A stretch of 38,756 nt of DNA from a virus, in the IMG/VR virus record IMGVR_UViG_3300009009_000025, positions 1-38,756 of that record. One strand, 5' to 3'. Each line of letters begins with the position of its first letter. Position 1 is the first letter of the stretch. Below, in pieces: positions 21,045 through 28,538 of the stretch. The translations under genes were made by a program, and so were the position numbers. Under the pieces are notes generated by a model, which did no database searches, was not told the origin of the DNA, and worked only from the letters and a program-made list of their open reading frames with translations.

Positions 21045-23575
21045 CAGCAAAAATCCTCTTCGTGTTTGATGGTTAGTTTCTTCCTTGGCACCGCGCCTTC
21101 GCGGTAAGATTCTAGTAGCTGGAGCGCAGTTAAGAGTCGGTCCTCTGTTACCTTTTTCTCCTCGATCACCGTAGCTACGGCGTAGTCCACTGTGTCTGGC
21201 ACCATGAGCCGGTAAACGGTCACGACACTCCCCTGCCCTCGTCGGTCGAGACGGGCGATCATCTGCTCGTAATCCTCTCGACTGTAGGTTAATGTCAGCC
21301 AGACGAGCGTATTGCCTCCGTGTTGGAGGTTGAGCCCGTGTCCGACGCTTTTCGGGTGAGCGACCAAGATGGGGATCTTCTTGTTGTTCCAATCCTCCAA
21401 AAGCTGTTTCTGTGGGGTTTGATTTTTGGCGTCCGCAAAGAATTTAGCCTTGGGAAAGTATTTTCGCAGCCTCTCCTGTTCATGCCGGAAAGCACATGCC
21501 ACCAGCACCGGACCTTCCGTTTGCTTGATGATCTTCTCCAGGGCTTTGATCTTCAGGTCGTGGATGTCGTGCCACTTGCTGTCGGCGTCGTAGATGCTGC
21601 CGGAGGTGAACTGAAGTAGCTTCGCTACCAGTGCTGCGGCGTTCGGTGCTGTGATCTCGGCTGACTTCAACTGGAGCACCAGTTCCTTCTCGAACTCCTT
21701 GTAGTCGTGGATCAGGTTCTTCGGCAGATGCACTTCCACGTCCTCGACCACTGTCTCCGGCAGGTTGAGCCAATCCTTCGAGCGGAGCGTGAGAGTGATG
21801 TCCGCCAGTCGGTTCTCAATGGCTTCGTTGGAGCCGTGGAGTTCTTTCCACTTATATCCTCCGTAGCCGGTCTGTTTGAAATACGTTTGCTTGAAATGCT
21901 CGAAGGCTCGTCCGAGACGCTTGCCATTATCGGTGAACCTAGCTTGAGCGAAGAGATCAAGGAGGGAGTTAGGCGCAGGGGTGCCTGTAAGCGCCCAGAT
22001 ACGTTTGTGTTGGTCATGGGGTATTTCTCTTCTGTAAAGATTGGCACGTTTGGAAGTGGGGTTTTTGAGCTTGGTGCAATTATGCACAAGGCAGCCATTT
22101 ACGCTGTACGATGGATGCCCAGAGACGCTAAGGTCGTAGAAACGTATGACTCCGTCTCTGGACCTAAAGCGGCGAAGTCGAATATCTGTTGATTCGTAAA
22201 TCTCAACACTCTCCACCCTTTTTGAGCCAAAACTTCGGTCTTCTTTTGGTCCTTCACTTTGACCTTCCGAGACTTGTGAGTGAATCCGTCCACTTCGATA
22301 GACAGCTTCCGGCTCTCGCAGCCAATATCCAGCTTGTAGTGGTGGGGTATCCGATCCTTGTGGAAGAGACCTTTCGTCTTGAATATGTACTCCATCTTCC
22401 ACAACCCCGGTTCTATCGAGTTCAAAAGTTGGAACAGAAAATTTTGCGGGTCTGAAGCGGGGCGACCGTTCCCACCTTGCACTAGCGGTCTGTGCTTGAT
22501 CCTCTTCAGTGTAGCACTCAGGCGATCCCGGGACACGTCGTTCAGCATAGGCTTTAAGTTTGCTATGCGGTCTAGCTGTTTCAACGAACTCTCTGACCCT
22601 GAAGCGTAAAACTTTTTCATCCCGCTCGACAACTTCCCGCGAAGTTCGGCAGTCCACACAGGTTTGTGGCTCGACTGCATTCTCCATTTCGCTGAGCAGG
22701 ATGTCCCGCAGAAGCGTTTCTTGCTTTTGTGCGGGATAAAAGGTGTCTTGCACCATTCGCAAGGAATTGTCGATTTTGGTGGACGGGCCGCCCACTGCTC
22801 TTTCAGTTTCACTCCTGTGCTCAAGGTGGAACATTGCTTGCTGCAAAAACGAGTCTTCATGCCATTGCTGTGGTCCTTCGGCATGTAAGCCGTTTTGCAC
22901 CATTCGCACACTCTCGGATGTCGAGGCAACGCAGGTCTCCCCCCTTTGGAGGTCTTTGGCTTGGACCCATCCGTCTGAGGTGAAGAACAGATGGGTGTCG
23001 CTGCACCAGATGTCTTGTCCGTCGATGCGGACTTTGGCAATACGTTTTGGCTGATTGATGTGGACATGAGTAACAAACCCTACCCCTTGCGCATTAAATA
23101 CGCAATCACCTTTTTTCACTTTCTCGATGGGTTTTTTACCAGCAGGCGTGTCAACCAGTGTCCCAGACGCAAAGCACTCATCTACGATCAGCGTATCGTA
23201 AGGGAGTCCGAGCCCCAGGCTTCTCCGAGTCTTCACCAACTCTACAAGCTTGGGGATGGACTCGTAGTTGCAGACGTAGATGTGAGCCTTTCCTTGCAGG
23301 AACGCACGCTTGCCCGCAGGTGAGCGCAGGTTCGCCACCTTCATCCATTTGAAGTCGTCCCACCGCTCGACCTCCAGAGGCCAAGTCAGGTTCGCCACAC
23401 GCATTGGAGCGAGGACGAGGGTGCCTACGGTCTGCTTGCGTTGGAACAGCTTGTTCACAGCACTCAACGAAGCCGCCGTCTTCCCGATGCCAACGCCGAC
23501 GAAGCCGAGAGCGTGCAGGTGGTCGAGCAGGTGCTGGGTCAGCAGATCCTGGGGTTCTGAGGAAGGGAATTTCAT
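21044..23575 (-). CDS. SNF2-family DNA helicase with an in-frame intein, 843 aa precursor (477 aa spliced)
   Basis: Motif I is 'GVGIGKT' at 26-32. Motif II is split: DE (132-133) precedes the intein and the sequence resumes at C500 with 'CTKLKNP', giving a normal DExxK-type SNF2 box after splicing. 'WALTGTPAPNSLLDLFAQ' (~527) is motif III and 'QMIARLDRRGQG' (771-782) is motif VI, the arginine-finger box. Such SF2 translocases remodel replication or recombination intermediates in phages with this DUF2800/DUF2815/VRR-NUC set. ATGA with the upstream gene and TGATG with the downstream one. It ends EEDFC, like three other replication proteins here. Splicing must occur for activity, since the intein interrupts the ATPase site. 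Confidence 0.85.
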   Translation of the reverse strand: MKFPSSEPQDLLTQHLLDHLHALGFVGVGIGKTAASLSAVNKLFQRKQTVGTLVLAPMRVANLTWPLEVERWDDFKWMKVANLRSPAGKRAFLQGKAHIYVCNYESIPKLVELVKTRRSLGLGLPYDTLIVDECFASGTLVDTPAGKKPIEKVKKGDCVFNAQGVGFVTHVHINQPKRIAKVRIDGQDIWCSDTHLFFTSDGWVQAKDLQRGETCVASTSESVRMVQNGLHAEGPQQWHEDSFLQQAMFHLEHRSETERAVGGPSTKIDNSLRMVQDTFYPAQKQETLLRDILLSEMENAVEPQTCVDCRTSREVVERDEKVLRFRVREFVETARPHSKLKAYAERRVPGSPECYTEEDQAQTASARWERSPRFRPAKFSVPTFELDRTGVVEDGVHIQDERSLPQGSDTPPLQAGYWLREPEAVYRSGRIHSQVSEGQSEGPKEDRSFGSKRVESVEIYESTDIRLRRFRSRDGVIRFYDLSVSGHPSYSVNGCLVHNCTKLKNPTSKRANLYRREIPHDQHKRIWALTGTPAPNSLLDLFAQARFTDNGKRLGRAFEHFKQTYFKQTGYGGYKWKELHGSNEAIENRLADITLTLRSKDWLNLPETVVEDVEVHLPKNLIHDYKEFEKELVLQLKSAEITAPNAAALVAKLLQFTSGSIYDADSKWHDIHDLKIKALEKIIKQTEGPVLVACAFRHEQERLRKYFPKAKFFADAKNQTPQKQLLEDWNNKKIPILVAHPKSVGHGLNLQHGGNTLVWLTLTYSREDYEQMIARLDRRGQGSVVTVYRLMVPDTVDYAVATVIEEKKVTEDRLLTALQLLESYREGAVPRKKLTIKHEEDFC
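22079..23176 (-). mobile_element. Intein in helicase motif II (366 aa)
   Basis: The intein covers precursor residues 134-499. N-terminal block A begins with nucleophile Cys ('CFASGTLVDTPAGKK'), block B carries S192-D-T-H195 ('WCSDTHLFFTSDGW'), block F is 'RFYDLSVSGHPSYSVNG', block G is 'CLVHN' and the +1 extein residue is Cys. All residues for class 1 splicing are present. The intein-frame middle (about 220-455) has no dodecapeptide LAGLIDADG or other endonuclease motif and reads as low-order Arg/Glu/Gln-rich sequence. The nuclease is instead in another frame of the same DNA. Confidence 0.88.
22099..23067 (-). CDS. Vsr/EDxHD-like homing endonuclease encoded in a second frame inside the intein, 322 aa
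   Basis: The frame is shifted by one base from the helicase and stays inside the intein DNA. The likely start is ATG 23067, ten bases after AGGG; a TTG at 23076 is an alternative. Two zinc-finger units follow: C54/C57...C75/C79 and C103/C106...C120/C124 (both 'CEWCKT...FC'). The C-terminal nuclease part has D247 ('YKLD'), E258 and D260 ('IEVDGFTH'), H264, D273 and 'KGWRVLRFTN'. This is the Vsr/DUF559 fold used by EDxHD homing enzymes of phage introns and split inteins. It presumably cuts intein-free helicase alleles and so spreads the intein. Confidence 0.8.
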   Translation of the reverse strand: MSTSISQNVLPKSASTDKTSGAATPICSSPQTDGSKPKTSKGGRPALPRHPRVCEWCKTAYMPKDHSNGMKTRFCSKQCSTLSTGVKLKEQWAARPPKSTIPCEWCKTPFIPHKSKKRFCGTSCSAKWRMQSSHKPVWTAELRGKLSSGMKKFYASGSESSLKQLDRIANLKPMLNDVSRDRLSATLKRIKHRPLVQGGNGRPASDPQNFLFQLLNSIEPGLWKMEYIFKTKGLFHKDRIPHHYKLDIGCESRKLSIEVDGFTHKSRKVKVKDQKKTEVLAQKGWRVLRFTNQQIFDFAALGPETESYVSTTLASLGIHRTA

Positions 23576-25064: not shown

Positions 25065-27242
25065 TTATTTTTGATAAAACTCTACAACCCCGCCTTCCGC
25101 GGCGAGGGGCATACCTTCGGCCCAAGCTGGAAGCTTGGTGAGGCACTGGACGAAGTGGTCGGCTGACTGTCCTGCAATAGGGTCGTATTCGGAGAGGGCT
25201 TCGTCATGGATCAGAGCCACGATCTTGTATCCTGCTTGGGAGGCGTTAATAGCCCCGTGAGCCATGAAGTCCGCAGCAATCGCTTGGGTCGCATTCTCGA
25301 CAAGGCTTCCCCCATATGTGGCGACTCGCCCCCACATCGCCTTCATCGGTATCTGTCCAAAAAAAGTGATGGCTTCAGACATCCGCGCTTTCGGATGCTT
25401 CTGTTTGACCTTGGCTATTTGCTCCGGCGTCGGATTGAACAGCTTCTTCTGCTCGGAGCTGATGACCTTGCGTATCTGGATTGGTTGTCCTTCCTCGTCA
25501 GTTCCATCCACCAGTTCGACCTTCTCCTCTTTCCACACGATCTGCGGAGTTAGTTGAGGTTGTGGATATGCGAGCTTCCTGCCGCTAGGCAGACGCATGA
25601 ACAAGTAGTCCATGCCTGCTGTCTTGGTGCGGAAGAACCCGCAGTTCACCCCAAACGGGTAAACCTTTCCGGGATTTCTGATGGCGTTCTTGGCGGCGTC
25701 CTCGGTCGTTCGCCAGTGGGCGACGATAGCAGGGCTAGCTTCACGCCAGTACTTGATGATGTCCGGGAGTTCTTCTTTGGTGAGGCCACTCTTCAAAGCA
25801 CCCATACGTTCGAGGGCACCTACACCGCCTCCGAAGCCACATCCGAGTTCGGCCTGTTTACCTTTATGGCGCAAAGGATGCTTCTCCCCGCGAGCTTCAT
25901 AAGCCTCGAACTCGGAGAACGGAACCTTGAACATCATCGAAGCAGACGCCTCGTAAATCTTACCGTGCGTCTTGAACACGTCGAGACGCCATTTCTCCTG
26001 CGCTTGCCACGCAATAATGCGTGCTTCGATAGCTGCGTAGTCGGCATCCAGCATCGGTCCCTTGTCTTGAACGAAATGGCGCATACATGAAGACATAACT
26101 TCGAGTGGGGGGCCGTACGCCAGATTCAGCCATGCATTGTTGCACCCTGCAATGACGTCGTAGTAGGCTTTGCCAGTCAGCTTCTTGAGATACTCAGCAG
26201 GACGTTTGAAATTCTGCGGCTGGACAAGCGAGGCACTCCATCGCCCCGTGCCTGCGCCATGATACACCAGTGTGCCCCTGACACGGTTGTCCTGTGGACC
26301 GGCACAACCGAGCATTGCCGGGATCTTCTTGAGCGAAGCGTAGCTCACCCGTTTCTTCAGTGTCAGAGCACGTCCAAGAGGTGTCGAATCGTCAAACTCC
26401 TCGTCCTCGAAGATTTCCTCCAAAGTGTCGGCGCGGAGATTGTCATGCTTGAAACCATTCTGCTGTAGCCACTCGACCACGCGGTCGCGCTGGGTGTGCT
26501 CGAAGCCGGTGAGTTTTCTGAACTCTTCAGCGAGAGCTTCCGTCTCCTCGTTCACCAGTTTCTCCGCTTTGCGGAGCGCGTCGAGGTTCACAGGGAACCC
26601 ACGGCAGTTGATCTCGATGTCCAGGAGGAACGTCTGGAGCGGGAAGCCGGTAAGCTCGAAGTCCTTCAGCAGAGTTTTGGCTTCTCTTTCCGTTCTAGAA
26701 TCCTGCAAACAGTACCGGCAGAACTCTCTGAAGGCTTCTGGATCATCGGTCGGCTCGATGAACTTGCCTTTCAATTTACCAACTGTCTGCGGAATGGAAA
26801 ACTTACGAATCAAACCCTTCCCTTTACTATCTTTCAAGTTGGTGAGTTTTAATGTTTCAGCCACTTTTTCCAAACTGGCTGGCAACGCAGCTCGACGGGC
26901 CATCGCGGCCACGCATCTCCACTGTTTATGTGGAATAGCTGGGTATCCCGTAGTGCTCTCGAACAAAGAATCTGTGATTGCAATTTCAAACCCTGCGTTG
27001 AATGCAGAGACGACCGCATCCGGCTTGCTCAGATCGGCTAGTTCATGGTCTGGGACCAGCAGCATGTGATCTTCAACAAGATGCCTCCACTTCTTCGGCA
27101 CCCAGATTCTAGGCTCTCCGTTTTCCTTTAACAAACTGAAGCAGAGAATCTCTGTGCTTGAGTCGTAGGCATACCGAAACGCTCCGACTTTGCGAAGGTC
27201 AGCGCGTGACCGCGTTTCATAGTCAAGACTGTACTCGGGCAT
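25065..27242 (-). CDS. polA: Family A DNA polymerase with N-terminal DEDDy exonuclease, 725 aa
   Basis: N-terminal 3'-5' exonuclease domain: Exo I D7/E9 ('SLDYETRSRADL'), Exo III 'YCLQDSRTE' (Y-x3-D). Polymerase palm: motif A 'LDADYAAIEARIIAW' (catalytic Asp near 400), motif B 'RHKGKQAELGCGFGG' (~457) and motif C 'ALIHDEAL' (HDE ~678). This architecture is the phage PolA type found with DUF2800/DUF2815 modules and should replicate the genome. An insert between motif B and C ('WKEEKVELVDGTDEEGQP') is longer than in PolI. Start ATG 27242 lies three bases after the stop of the small 62-aa gene. It lacks a 5'-3' exonuclease domain. Confidence 0.92.
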   Translation of the reverse strand: MPEYSLDYETRSRADLRKVGAFRYAYDSSTEILCFSLLKENGEPRIWVPKKWRHLVEDHMLLVPDHELADLSKPDAVVSAFNAGFEIAITDSLFESTTGYPAIPHKQWRCVAAMARRAALPASLEKVAETLKLTNLKDSKGKGLIRKFSIPQTVGKLKGKFIEPTDDPEAFREFCRYCLQDSRTEREAKTLLKDFELTGFPLQTFLLDIEINCRGFPVNLDALRKAEKLVNEETEALAEEFRKLTGFEHTQRDRVVEWLQQNGFKHDNLRADTLEEIFEDEEFDDSTPLGRALTLKKRVSYASLKKIPAMLGCAGPQDNRVRGTLVYHGAGTGRWSASLVQPQNFKRPAEYLKKLTGKAYYDVIAGCNNAWLNLAYGPPLEVMSSCMRHFVQDKGPMLDADYAAIEARIIAWQAQEKWRLDVFKTHGKIYEASASMMFKVPFSEFEAYEARGEKHPLRHKGKQAELGCGFGGGVGALERMGALKSGLTKEELPDIIKYWREASPAIVAHWRTTEDAAKNAIRNPGKVYPFGVNCGFFRTKTAGMDYLFMRLPSGRKLAYPQPQLTPQIVWKEEKVELVDGTDEEGQPIQIRKVISSEQKKLFNPTPEQIAKVKQKHPKARMSEAITFFGQIPMKAMWGRVATYGGSLVENATQAIAADFMAHGAINASQAGYKIVALIHDEALSEYDPIAGQSADHFVQCLTKLPAWAEGMPLAAEGGVVEFYQK

Positions 27243-27245
27243 AAG

Positions 27246-27434
27246 CTACAGCTTTTCTTTTTCGATCAATTCCCCGAGATATTTGTGAAGCGACTTTATC
27301 TCGTCTTCTCCAAGACGAAATTCATCGTAGTCATCCGCGTCATACAATTTGACGCTGTGAATGCCTCCAGAAACTTCGTGGGTAACTCGAAGATCGTTGG
27401 CTAGCACTGTTTCAGTTTCCACGTAAGTTATCAT
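27246..27434 (-). CDS. Small acidic hypothetical protein, 62 aa
   Basis: Starts MITYVETETVLANDL and has a beta-rich N-terminus followed by 'EDEIKSLHKYLGELIEKEKL' helix. Separated from the polymerase by three bases and from the first cloverleaf RNA by 19 bases, so the RNA lies in its leader. Function unknown. Confidence 0.6.
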   Translation of the reverse strand: MITYVETETVLANDLRVTHEVSGGIHSVKLYDADDYDEFRLGEDEIKSLHKYLGELIEKEKL

Positions 27435-27453
27435 TGTTCAAAAAGTAAAGTTG

Positions 27454-27546
27454 TACCCCGAGACGCACAGGGCTCGAAACCTGCTCCCCCCACATCACGG
27501 GCGTTGTCGTGAGCTATGTGTCCTTCCACATCGGCGTCTCGGGGTA
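27454..27546 (-). ncRNA. tRNA-like cloverleaf RNA, copy 1
   Basis: Read on the minus strand: 13-bp perfect closing stem (27546-27534 / 27466-27454); D-like hairpin ATGTG-GAAGGA-CACAT (27531-27516); middle hairpin TCACG-(8 nt)-CGTGA (27512-27495); short G-rich linker; and T-like hairpin GCAGG-TTTCGAGC-CCTGT (27484-27467) abutting the closing stem. The UUCGA in one loop and GG in the other recall tRNA T- and D-loops, which dock on each other. The closing stem is far longer than an acceptor stem and no anticodon loop of normal form is present. Confidence 0.6.
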
Positions 27547-27560
27547 TGATTGGTCTGTTG

Positions 27561-27691
27561 GAAAACAGAGTTCAGCGGGTAGGGCTCGAAACCTACTGCC
27601 AATGCTGCTCAGGGACTTTCGGAGGAGCTTCGCACTGATACCACCCTATCTCGGTGCGTGTCCTTCCACGCCGCCGCTGAACTCTGTTTTC
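27561..27691 (-). ncRNA. tRNA-like cloverleaf RNA, copy 2
   Basis: Closing stem of 18 perfect bp (27691-27674 / 27578-27561). D-like hairpin GCGTG-GAAGGA-CACGC (27671-27656) and T-like hairpin GTAGG-TTTCGAGC-CCTAC (27596-27579) keep the same loops as copy 1 while the stem pairs differ, i.e. covariation. The middle region is longer and holds GATA-GGGTGG-TATC (27650-27637) and a weaker hairpin with GCTC/GAGC arms. Lies 14 bases upstream of copy 1. Confidence 0.62.
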
Positions 27692-27727
27692 AAAAAGTGA
27701 GCAGCCACATTTGTCAGCAGGTTGCTC
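27691..27727 (-). terminator. Rho-independent terminator-like hairpin (minus strand)
   Basis: Stem GAGCAACC/GGCTGCTC (one mismatch) at 27727-27720 and 27706-27699, 13-nt loop, followed by ACTTTTTG. It would end transcripts coming from the ssDNA-binding protein gene. The U-tract directly abuts the 5' strand of cloverleaf copy 2, so it might also be part of a larger RNA. Confidence 0.5.
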
Positions 27728-27953
27728 AGTCTCTCATCCGGCTACTTTATATCGCGGAGCCTAGGACATGGATTGCCGCGTTTCTTTCCCGTCCGCCGCT
27801 CCTTTCGGTTTACAAGCCGATTTAGATCGCTGACGCGGTGTTGAGCCGTTGAAGGCTACGGGAGGAAATTAGTGAAGCCGTGCATTACGCCCCGACGCCC
27901 GCAGTGTGGGCGAAGATAATAAATGGAACGCTTATGCGCGGCTTCAAAGTGGT

Positions 27954-28538
27954 TTACGCTGCGTCTTCCTCTCCGGCGTCGTCGGACTCGTCGGAGAACA
28001 CGTCCTCGGCGCGGACGCGGCTTCCGCCTCCACTGAGAGGCTCGCCGTCCTTGAGGAACTGGATCGCCTCAAAGCCCGCGAACAGGCCGCGACCGCCGTT
28101 CTCCGTGCCGTAGAAGCGCACGACGACTTTGGCGTAGCAGCCGCTGTAAGGCTTGTTGTCCTCGGCGGCGAGTGGTGTGCGACCATCAGTATCGACGATG
28201 ACGGGACGGTTCTTGTTGCTGGCGGAGACGACCTTCATGCCTTTGTAGGCGTCCTTGATCTCGTCGTCCTTGTCGGTGTGGGTGTTGCCGTCCGACACGC
28301 AGAAACGTTTCGGGTCTTTCCAGACGAGCGGGTGTTTCTTCCACTTGTCGAGGGAGACGTGCTTCACGGCTGCGTCGATTGCCTTGATAGCGTCCTTACC
28401 TTCTTTGGAGGCAGGGTCGATGATGCAGGTGACTTTGAACTTGGGGGTCCCCTGGTTGAGTTGTCCTTCAAAGGGTTTGAAGCAGTGGAGGTAATCGACG
28501 CGACATTTGATGATCGCTGTTGCTGGGTCTAGTGCCAT
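27954..28538 (-). CDS. DUF2815 family ssDNA-binding protein, 194 aa
   Basis: Full-length match in character to DUF2815: N-terminal 'IKCRVDYLHCFKPFEG', 'PKFKVTCIIDPASKEG', and C-terminal 'CYAKVVVRFYGTENGGRGLFAGFEAIQFLKDGEPLS' (shown in part), an OB-fold-type beta barrel. The tail is very acidic ('FSDESDDAGEEDAA'), as in T7 gp2.5-like single-strand DNA binding proteins, where the tail recruits polymerase and helicase. It has a strong own promoter with an operator in its spacer. The family usually lies beside DUF2800 and the family A polymerase, as here. Confidence 0.85.
   Translation of the reverse strand: MALDPATAIIKCRVDYLHCFKPFEGQLNQGTPKFKVTCIIDPASKEGKDAIKAIDAAVKHVSLDKWKKHPLVWKDPKRFCVSDGNTHTDKDDEIKDAYKGMKVVSASNKNRPVIVDTDGRTPLAAEDNKPYSGCYAKVVVRFYGTENGGRGLFAGFEAIQFLKDGEPLSGGGSRVRAEDVFSDESDDAGEEDAA

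Follow-up and report, generated by a model that had tools for sequence, protein, structure and literature searches.

An apparently undescribed phage RNA family that combines a tRNA-like frame with a variable middle domain

Bacterial Y RNA (YrlA), the partner of Ro60 (TROVE), combines a long closing stem with a tRNA-like module. In tmRNA (RF00023), tRNA-like ends enclose a long insert that replaces the anticodon arm. The DUF3800 and abiF RNA motifs (RF02967 and RF03085) are small structured RNAs associated with phages. A phage-encoded decoy RNA is represented by pseudo-ToxI of phage PhiTE, a tandem-repeat antitoxin mimic without a tRNA-like scaffold (PMC3475682). The RNAs described here resemble each of these in part; the likeness to pseudo-ToxI is an analogy of how an RNA may work, with no homology seen.

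The window, the whole stretch of DNA analysed, comes from a viral record and spans 38,756 nt. Two RNA units lie in it between the gene for an Enc34-type single-stranded DNA-binding protein (ssb, 27957-28538) and that for a family A DNA polymerase (pol, 25068-27242), and the genes around the pair are on the minus strand. Read on that strand, each unit consists of a closing (acceptor-like) stem, a 2-nt linker CG, a D-like hairpin of 5 bp with loop GAAGGA, a variable domain (here called the cargo), an unpaired A, and a T-like hairpin of 5 bp with loop TTTCGAGC, joined without a gap to the 3' strand of the closing stem (Table 1). The original prediction, made from this DNA alone, had described both units with their perfect closing stems, hairpins and loops; the sites and pairings are as it described them, and the minus strand is added here. 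The cargo of copy 1 possibly forms a pseudoknot (TCAC/GTGA with CCC/GGG), as read by eye. A 62-aa ORF beside the pair (27246-27434) has no Pfam match.

Table 1. Coordinates of the two RNA copies, their parts, and the segment that carries them. Scores are from covariance model R2, whose E-values are rough.
Feature	Position	Strand	R2 score
Entire copy 2 (the upstream RNA) with its 18-bp closing stem	27561..27691	-	60.9 bits, E 2.5e-11
5' strand of copy 2 closing stem, paired over 18 bp to 27561-27578	27674..27691	-	
Copy 2 D-like hairpin, GCGTG-GAAGGA-CACGC	27656..27671	-	
Copy 2 variable (cargo) domain, 58 nt, unrelated to copy 1 cargo	27598..27655	-	
Copy 2 T-like hairpin, GTAGG-TTTCGAGC-CCTAC, preceded by the invariant A (27597)	27579..27597	-	
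Copy 2 closing stem, 3' strand	27561..27578	-	
Entire copy 1 (the downstream RNA) with its 13-bp closing stem	27454..27546	-	46.0 bits, E 3.9e-8
5' strand of copy 1 closing stem, paired over 13 bp to 27454-27466	27534..27546	-	
Copy 1 D-like hairpin, ATGTG-GAAGGA-CACAT	27516..27531	-	
Copy 1 variable (cargo) domain, 30 nt	27486..27515	-	
Copy 1 T-like hairpin, GCAGG-TTTCGAGC-CCTGT, preceded by the invariant A (27485)	27467..27485	-	
Segment of ~520 nt missing from relative L002, ssb to pol, carrying both RNAs and the 62-aa ORF	27243..27786	-	

The pair belongs to a large family. IMG/VR was scanned with degenerate patterns, which returned a handful of contigs, then 76, 115 and at least 120; after filtering, the family comprises at least 270 distinct RNAs from at least 266 contigs, nearly all of them phage. 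Its main D-like loops are GAAGGA and GATGGA, and its main T-like loops are TATCAAGC, TTTCGAGC and TGTCGAGC. Four named phages are among its carriers, all of them unannotated at the RNA site: Caulobacter phage DMCA, Komagataeibacter phages phiKX1 and phiKX2, and Pseudanabaena phage Pan3. The RNA also occurs in contigs from Acetobacteraceae bacterium AT-5844 and Mesorhizobium sp. 65-26. Samples of bacterial genomes gave model matches in 3 of 289 from the class and 3 of 398 from the phylum of the AT-5844 genome; clear phage genes adjoin only one of these loci, and the rest are likely of prophage origin. A consensus query found no member in E. coli genomes. BLAST of the window region against phage records matched only the D-arm of Pan3, which is a true member.

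At gathering score, Rfam 15 places no family over the RNA in the window or at 46 member loci, in agreement with the original prediction, which knew no named family of this form. Rfam matches at member loci fall outside the RNA or inside the tRNA-like cargos of two members, L018 and L210, and relaxing the search of the window to E up to 10 gives just two implausible matches below cut-off. A search of the open-access literature found no description of the family, which is apparently undescribed. That it is a new RNA family, built as a tRNA-like frame around a variable middle, we regard as practically certain.

The family shares with tRNA (RF00005) a T-stem stacked without a gap on the closing stem, a 2-nt linker ahead of the D-like hairpin, a modal closing-stem length of 7-10 bp, and GG in the D-like loop with TC[AG]A as the T-loop core, the loop identities being partly imposed by the search patterns. 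It differs from tRNA in lacking an anticodon arm and a CCA end, in its T-like loop of 8 nt and D-like loop of 6 nt, and in closing stems that reach 22 bp. The original prediction called the RNAs tRNA-like without an anticodon, and both parts stand: a 7-nt anticodon loop on its own arm is absent, and the corresponding region is hypervariable, 30-156 nt long, with no common arm. Its remark that the closing stem is too long for an acceptor does not hold for the family at large, given the modal length. The RNA is not a tRNA, since neither ARAGORN nor RF00005 detects the scaffold. The architecture of tmRNA is similar in its tRNA-like ends and long insert, whereas the family's insert is hypervariable; tmRNA is ruled out because RF00023 does not match the RNA and no consistent tag reading frame is seen by eye. 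Y RNA shares the long closing stem and tRNA-like module. It too is ruled out, having no Rfam match here. A Ro60 (TROVE) gene is missing both from the window and from 19 member records, several of them fragmentary, and this absence is evidence against Y RNA; a further difference is that the family's closing stems have no sequence conserved along them.

Other structured RNAs occur alongside members as separate elements. A DUF3800-VII RNA (L340, 6124-6211, minus strand, 39.5 bits) follows one member at a distance of 17 nt. An abiF RNA (L131, 1118-1154, plus strand), scoring at threshold with 37.3 bits, precedes another by about 190 nt. These motifs have other folds and other models and do not overlap the members, and neither DUF3800 nor Abi genes are recurrent neighbours of members. 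A tmRNA (RF00023, 141 bits; L036, 5450-5796, minus strand) is encoded in a viral contig a few hundred nucleotides downstream of a member, whose own closing stem leads into TTTTTT and could double as a terminator. Two further member contigs, L295 and L315, carry dense tRNA arrays, with 11 and 4 tRNA matches.

Both window copies fold more stably than dinucleotide shuffles, with z of -2.6 (minus strand) and -3.7 (plus strand) for copy 1 and -4.6 and -4.4 for copy 2. A descriptor made of both hairpins, the abutting closing stem and the loop consensus finds no match in 5.0 Mb of reversed sequence and none in shuffled sequence. Covariance model R2, built on 42 relatives with the window left out, locates exactly two sites in the window, the two copies. 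In an alignment of 48 members, for which a closing stem of at least 6 bp was required, 97.5% of cells in the stems are paired, compared with 27-40% in slid controls, and 215 cells show double changes, compared with 57 in shuffles. RNAalifold, run without the structure being supplied, predicts the same 18 pairs. The compensating changes that the original prediction saw between two copies thus extend across the family, and the fold it proposed is borne out by covariation in homologs.

The patterns fixed the loops and the innermost D-stem pair, and the large scans also fixed the CCGG part of the T-stem. The remaining features were left free, and are counted here in 173 raw pattern matches taken without a stem filter. 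A closing stem of at least 6 bp is present in the exact register in 150 of them, compared with an average of 0.25 when the register is slid. All five D-stem pairs are kept in 161, the linker begins with C in 170, and none of the 173 lacks the A that precedes the T-stem. The closing stem shows no conserved sequence along its length in the family alignment. The original prediction likened the loops to interacting D- and T-loops, and such an elbow contact is a possibility. An apparent covariation between position 3 of the D-like loop and position 2 of the T-like loop, perfect in the first hits, was forced by the pattern and is rejected; an unbiased scan gives AA 82, TA 58 and AT 10.

The strand of the RNA follows from G-U pairs. 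At one T-stem pair, the strand read here, which is the minus strand in the window, has G-U in 12 of the 48 aligned sequences and 23 of the 173 raw matches; on the opposite strand these would be A-C mismatches. Hexamers resembling a -10 promoter element are concentrated upstream on the same strand, with 33 in the interval -20 to -6 and about 3 per 15 nt elsewhere, and their starts peak at -12 from the closing stem, which places the start of transcription at about the first base of that stem. Among the 123 members with short stems, 23 have the motif there, against 4 in a control interval. The motif occurs in 3 of the 34 members with stems longer than 10 bp, a group that includes the window copies, and a consensus scan finds no promoter-like site alongside those copies; long-stem members may be cut from longer transcripts. 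One sub-group (L077, L085, L091, L198 and similar members) shares a closing stem of 14-17 bp with the pattern (A/C)CATCA(C/T)..GCGG and a 3' flank GTGA(A/G)(T/C)GC, mostly lacks the -10 motif, and may likewise be processed from longer transcripts. An intrinsic terminator at the 3' end is ruled out as a family feature, since such terminators follow 8 of 157 members and 11 random positions.

These strand signals bear on the reading of the inverted repeats as a DNA-level element, a recombination or mobile-cassette site whose RNA-like fold is incidental. Cargo replacement between fixed borders, described below, does look cassette-like. The confinement of G-U pairs to one strand (12/48; 23/173) and the -10 motifs at a fixed distance upstream on that strand speak against this reading, and the invariant unpaired A and C and the conserved loops are better explained by a folded RNA. 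We consider a DNA-level element highly unlikely.

Members show no fixed relation to neighboring genes. Orientation relative to the nearest genes on the two sides is random (same/same 38, opposite/opposite 43, same/opposite 36, opposite/same 26). The 120 nearest genes on the downstream side and 106 on the upstream side represent dozens of families, each found in at most 3 loci, and include lysis, terminase, integrase, antiterminator and unknown types. A partnership with a neighboring gene is accordingly ruled out across the roughly 266 contigs, there being no dominant neighbor family. So is a cis-regulatory leader or riboswitch, which would have a fixed orientation and position upstream of a gene family, and an RNA antitoxin of Type III or AbiF kind, which would adjoin a cognate toxin gene, since no family recurs among the same 120 and 106 genes. 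Defense and anti-defense genes show no consistent association with members. The one enriched neighbor is the tRNA gene, present within 200 nt of 15 of 270 members compared with 3 random positions, mostly on the same strand. Varied neighbors, random orientation and upstream -10 motifs together make the RNAs look stand-alone.

The original prediction drew a replication or regulatory role from the position between ssb and pol, and a primer, leader or processing signal of that region would be such an element. The window position is what favors it. Members elsewhere, however, sit in both orientations beside genes for lysis, terminase, integrase, antiterminator and tRNA, and relatives with the same ssb-pol order have no such RNA. 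In L002, whose polymerase is 85% identical, alignment with the window runs to 27787 and resumes at 27226, so that about 520 nt carrying the RNAs and the 62-aa ORF are missing; no family match occurs in the records of the two relatives whose polymerases are closest (85% and 59% identical). By this sequence comparison, the RNA pair is accessory in the window. A replication role is unsupported, and an element tied to ssb and pol is largely refuted by the neighbor data and extremely improbable.

The same region holds other features. A conserved element, CCTCCCGTAGCC...ACGGGAGG, lies between ssb and pol in the window (27787-27862, minus strand) and in L002 (4899-4983), which is without the RNAs; a stem of 6-9 bp is possible in it. 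In the ssb-pol gap of the 59% relative (L004, 4757-4903) there is a different tRNA-like RNA, with closing stem AGCACG/CGTGCT, a canonical T-arm GCAGGTTCAAATCCTGC and a long insert replacing the anticodon arm, in which ARAGORN finds no tRNA. Elsewhere in the window, a SNF2/DEAD helicase gene (21047-23575, minus strand) has Hint and intein-splicing matches, and a 325-aa ORF in another frame (22099-23076, minus strand), wholly within that gene, matches a DUF559 endonuclease (E 2.3e-12); the interior of the helicase intein seems to be overprinted by a homing-type endonuclease gene.

The cargo is the part that changes. It has a median length of 75 nt and is mostly unique, 237 of 267 being singletons by BLAST. 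Between members L077 and L085 the scaffolds are identical and the flanks agree at 93% and 99%, yet the identity of their cargos, 0.51, is that of random cargo pairs (0.51 +/- 0.07). Near-identical flanks with unrelated cargos recur in L169/L218, L085/L091 and L117/L135. The converse also occurs: L131/L150, L143/L261 and L089/L246 have similar cargos and compensated stems, with flank homology undetected. Tandem or paired copies within one phage differ in cargo, as in the window, L092, L122, L239 and L340. A conserved tRNA-like frame with a middle swapped wholesale is the pattern expected of a specificity determinant in an arms race, with RNA here in the place of protein.

As nested folds, cargos are on average about as stable as shuffles (z about -0.2 to -0.4). 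A helix of at least 5 bp with a 3' strand that runs up to the invariant A is in excess (26%, compared with 6%), as are helices that cross it and total at least 10 bp (47%, compared with 18%). This excess makes pseudoknots likely in many cargos; a single common pseudoknot is only partly supported, as topologies differ among cargos. A canonical tRNA T-arm appears in 8 of 267 cargos (about 3%), where shuffles lead one to expect about 0.1 cargos. The cargos of L210 and L018 match RF00005 (41.4 and 34.9 bits); their tRNA-like sequences (L210, 2049-2116; L018, 1567-1632) lack a normal anticodon loop, both contain GGGACAAG, and ARAGORN reports no tRNA in either. By eye, L210 has CCGG-GACAAG-CCGG in place of the anticodon arm. 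Apart from the tRNA-like ones, no cargo resembles a known host RNA or antitoxin in Rfam.

These properties weigh on two other accounts. The P4 CI and P1 C4 immunity RNAs are models for one, a regulatory or immunity small RNA whose cargo pairs with phage or host messages, so that exchange of the cargo shifts the immunity group. Hypervariable cargos on conserved flanks do recall immunity regions, and some members lie in proviruses of sequenced isolates or beside integrases. Yet the cargos share no conserved seed, and their longest exact complementary match to the phage's own neighborhood averages 9.89 nt, compared with 9.97 in shuffles (n = 155), which rules out antisense action on the same phage; the account as a whole is unlikely. 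By the other, the whole fold is a pseudo-tRNA that titrates RNase P, toxins that cleave tRNA, or other factors that bind it, and the middle is neutral filler. The tRNA-like elbow loops, the missing anticodon, the nearby tRNA genes and the tRNA parts within some cargos fit it. Filler should drift gradually, however, and cargos are instead replaced on flanks 90-99% identical and recur across phages with compensated stems (L131/L150, L089/L246, L143/L261). We rate the filler account a little below the immunity RNA.

We favor a stand-alone phage non-coding RNA that would act in trans. Its constant part is a frame resembling the tRNA elbow, made of the closing stem, in which both ends are locked, the D-like hairpin, and the T-like hairpin stacked directly on the closing stem; this frame carries an exchangeable cargo. 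The frame would give the RNA stability, or handling by the host tRNA machinery or a tRNA-binding host factor, and the cargo would set specificity, each being an RNA decoy or inhibitor of a host factor. The selective pressure would probably be anti-phage defense or competition between phages. A trans-acting cargo carrier is the better-founded part of this proposal and somewhat probable. Service as a decoy in anti-defense or competition, for which PhiTE pseudo-ToxI gives a precedent as a phage RNA decoy, is possible rather than probable. The full account, a tRNA-framed carrier of exchangeable decoy or inhibitor cargos acting in trans, is tentative, with a little less than an even chance.

That an RNA family occurring in phage contigs by the hundred should be missing from Rfam, and be unannotated in the four named phages, marks a gap in the catalogue of phage non-coding RNAs. 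A culturable pair, Caulobacter vibrioides CB15 and phage DMCA, makes the family directly testable. It may be, though we hold this with some doubt, that these RNAs are a widespread phage cassette holder, a tRNA-shaped chassis for recombined effectors, some of them anticodon-less tRNAs, that would serve as a re-programmable arsenal against host defenses or rival phages. Should the cargos prove to be decoys or inhibitors, the family would offer a ready library for finding RNA-based counter-defense and the host factors it targets.
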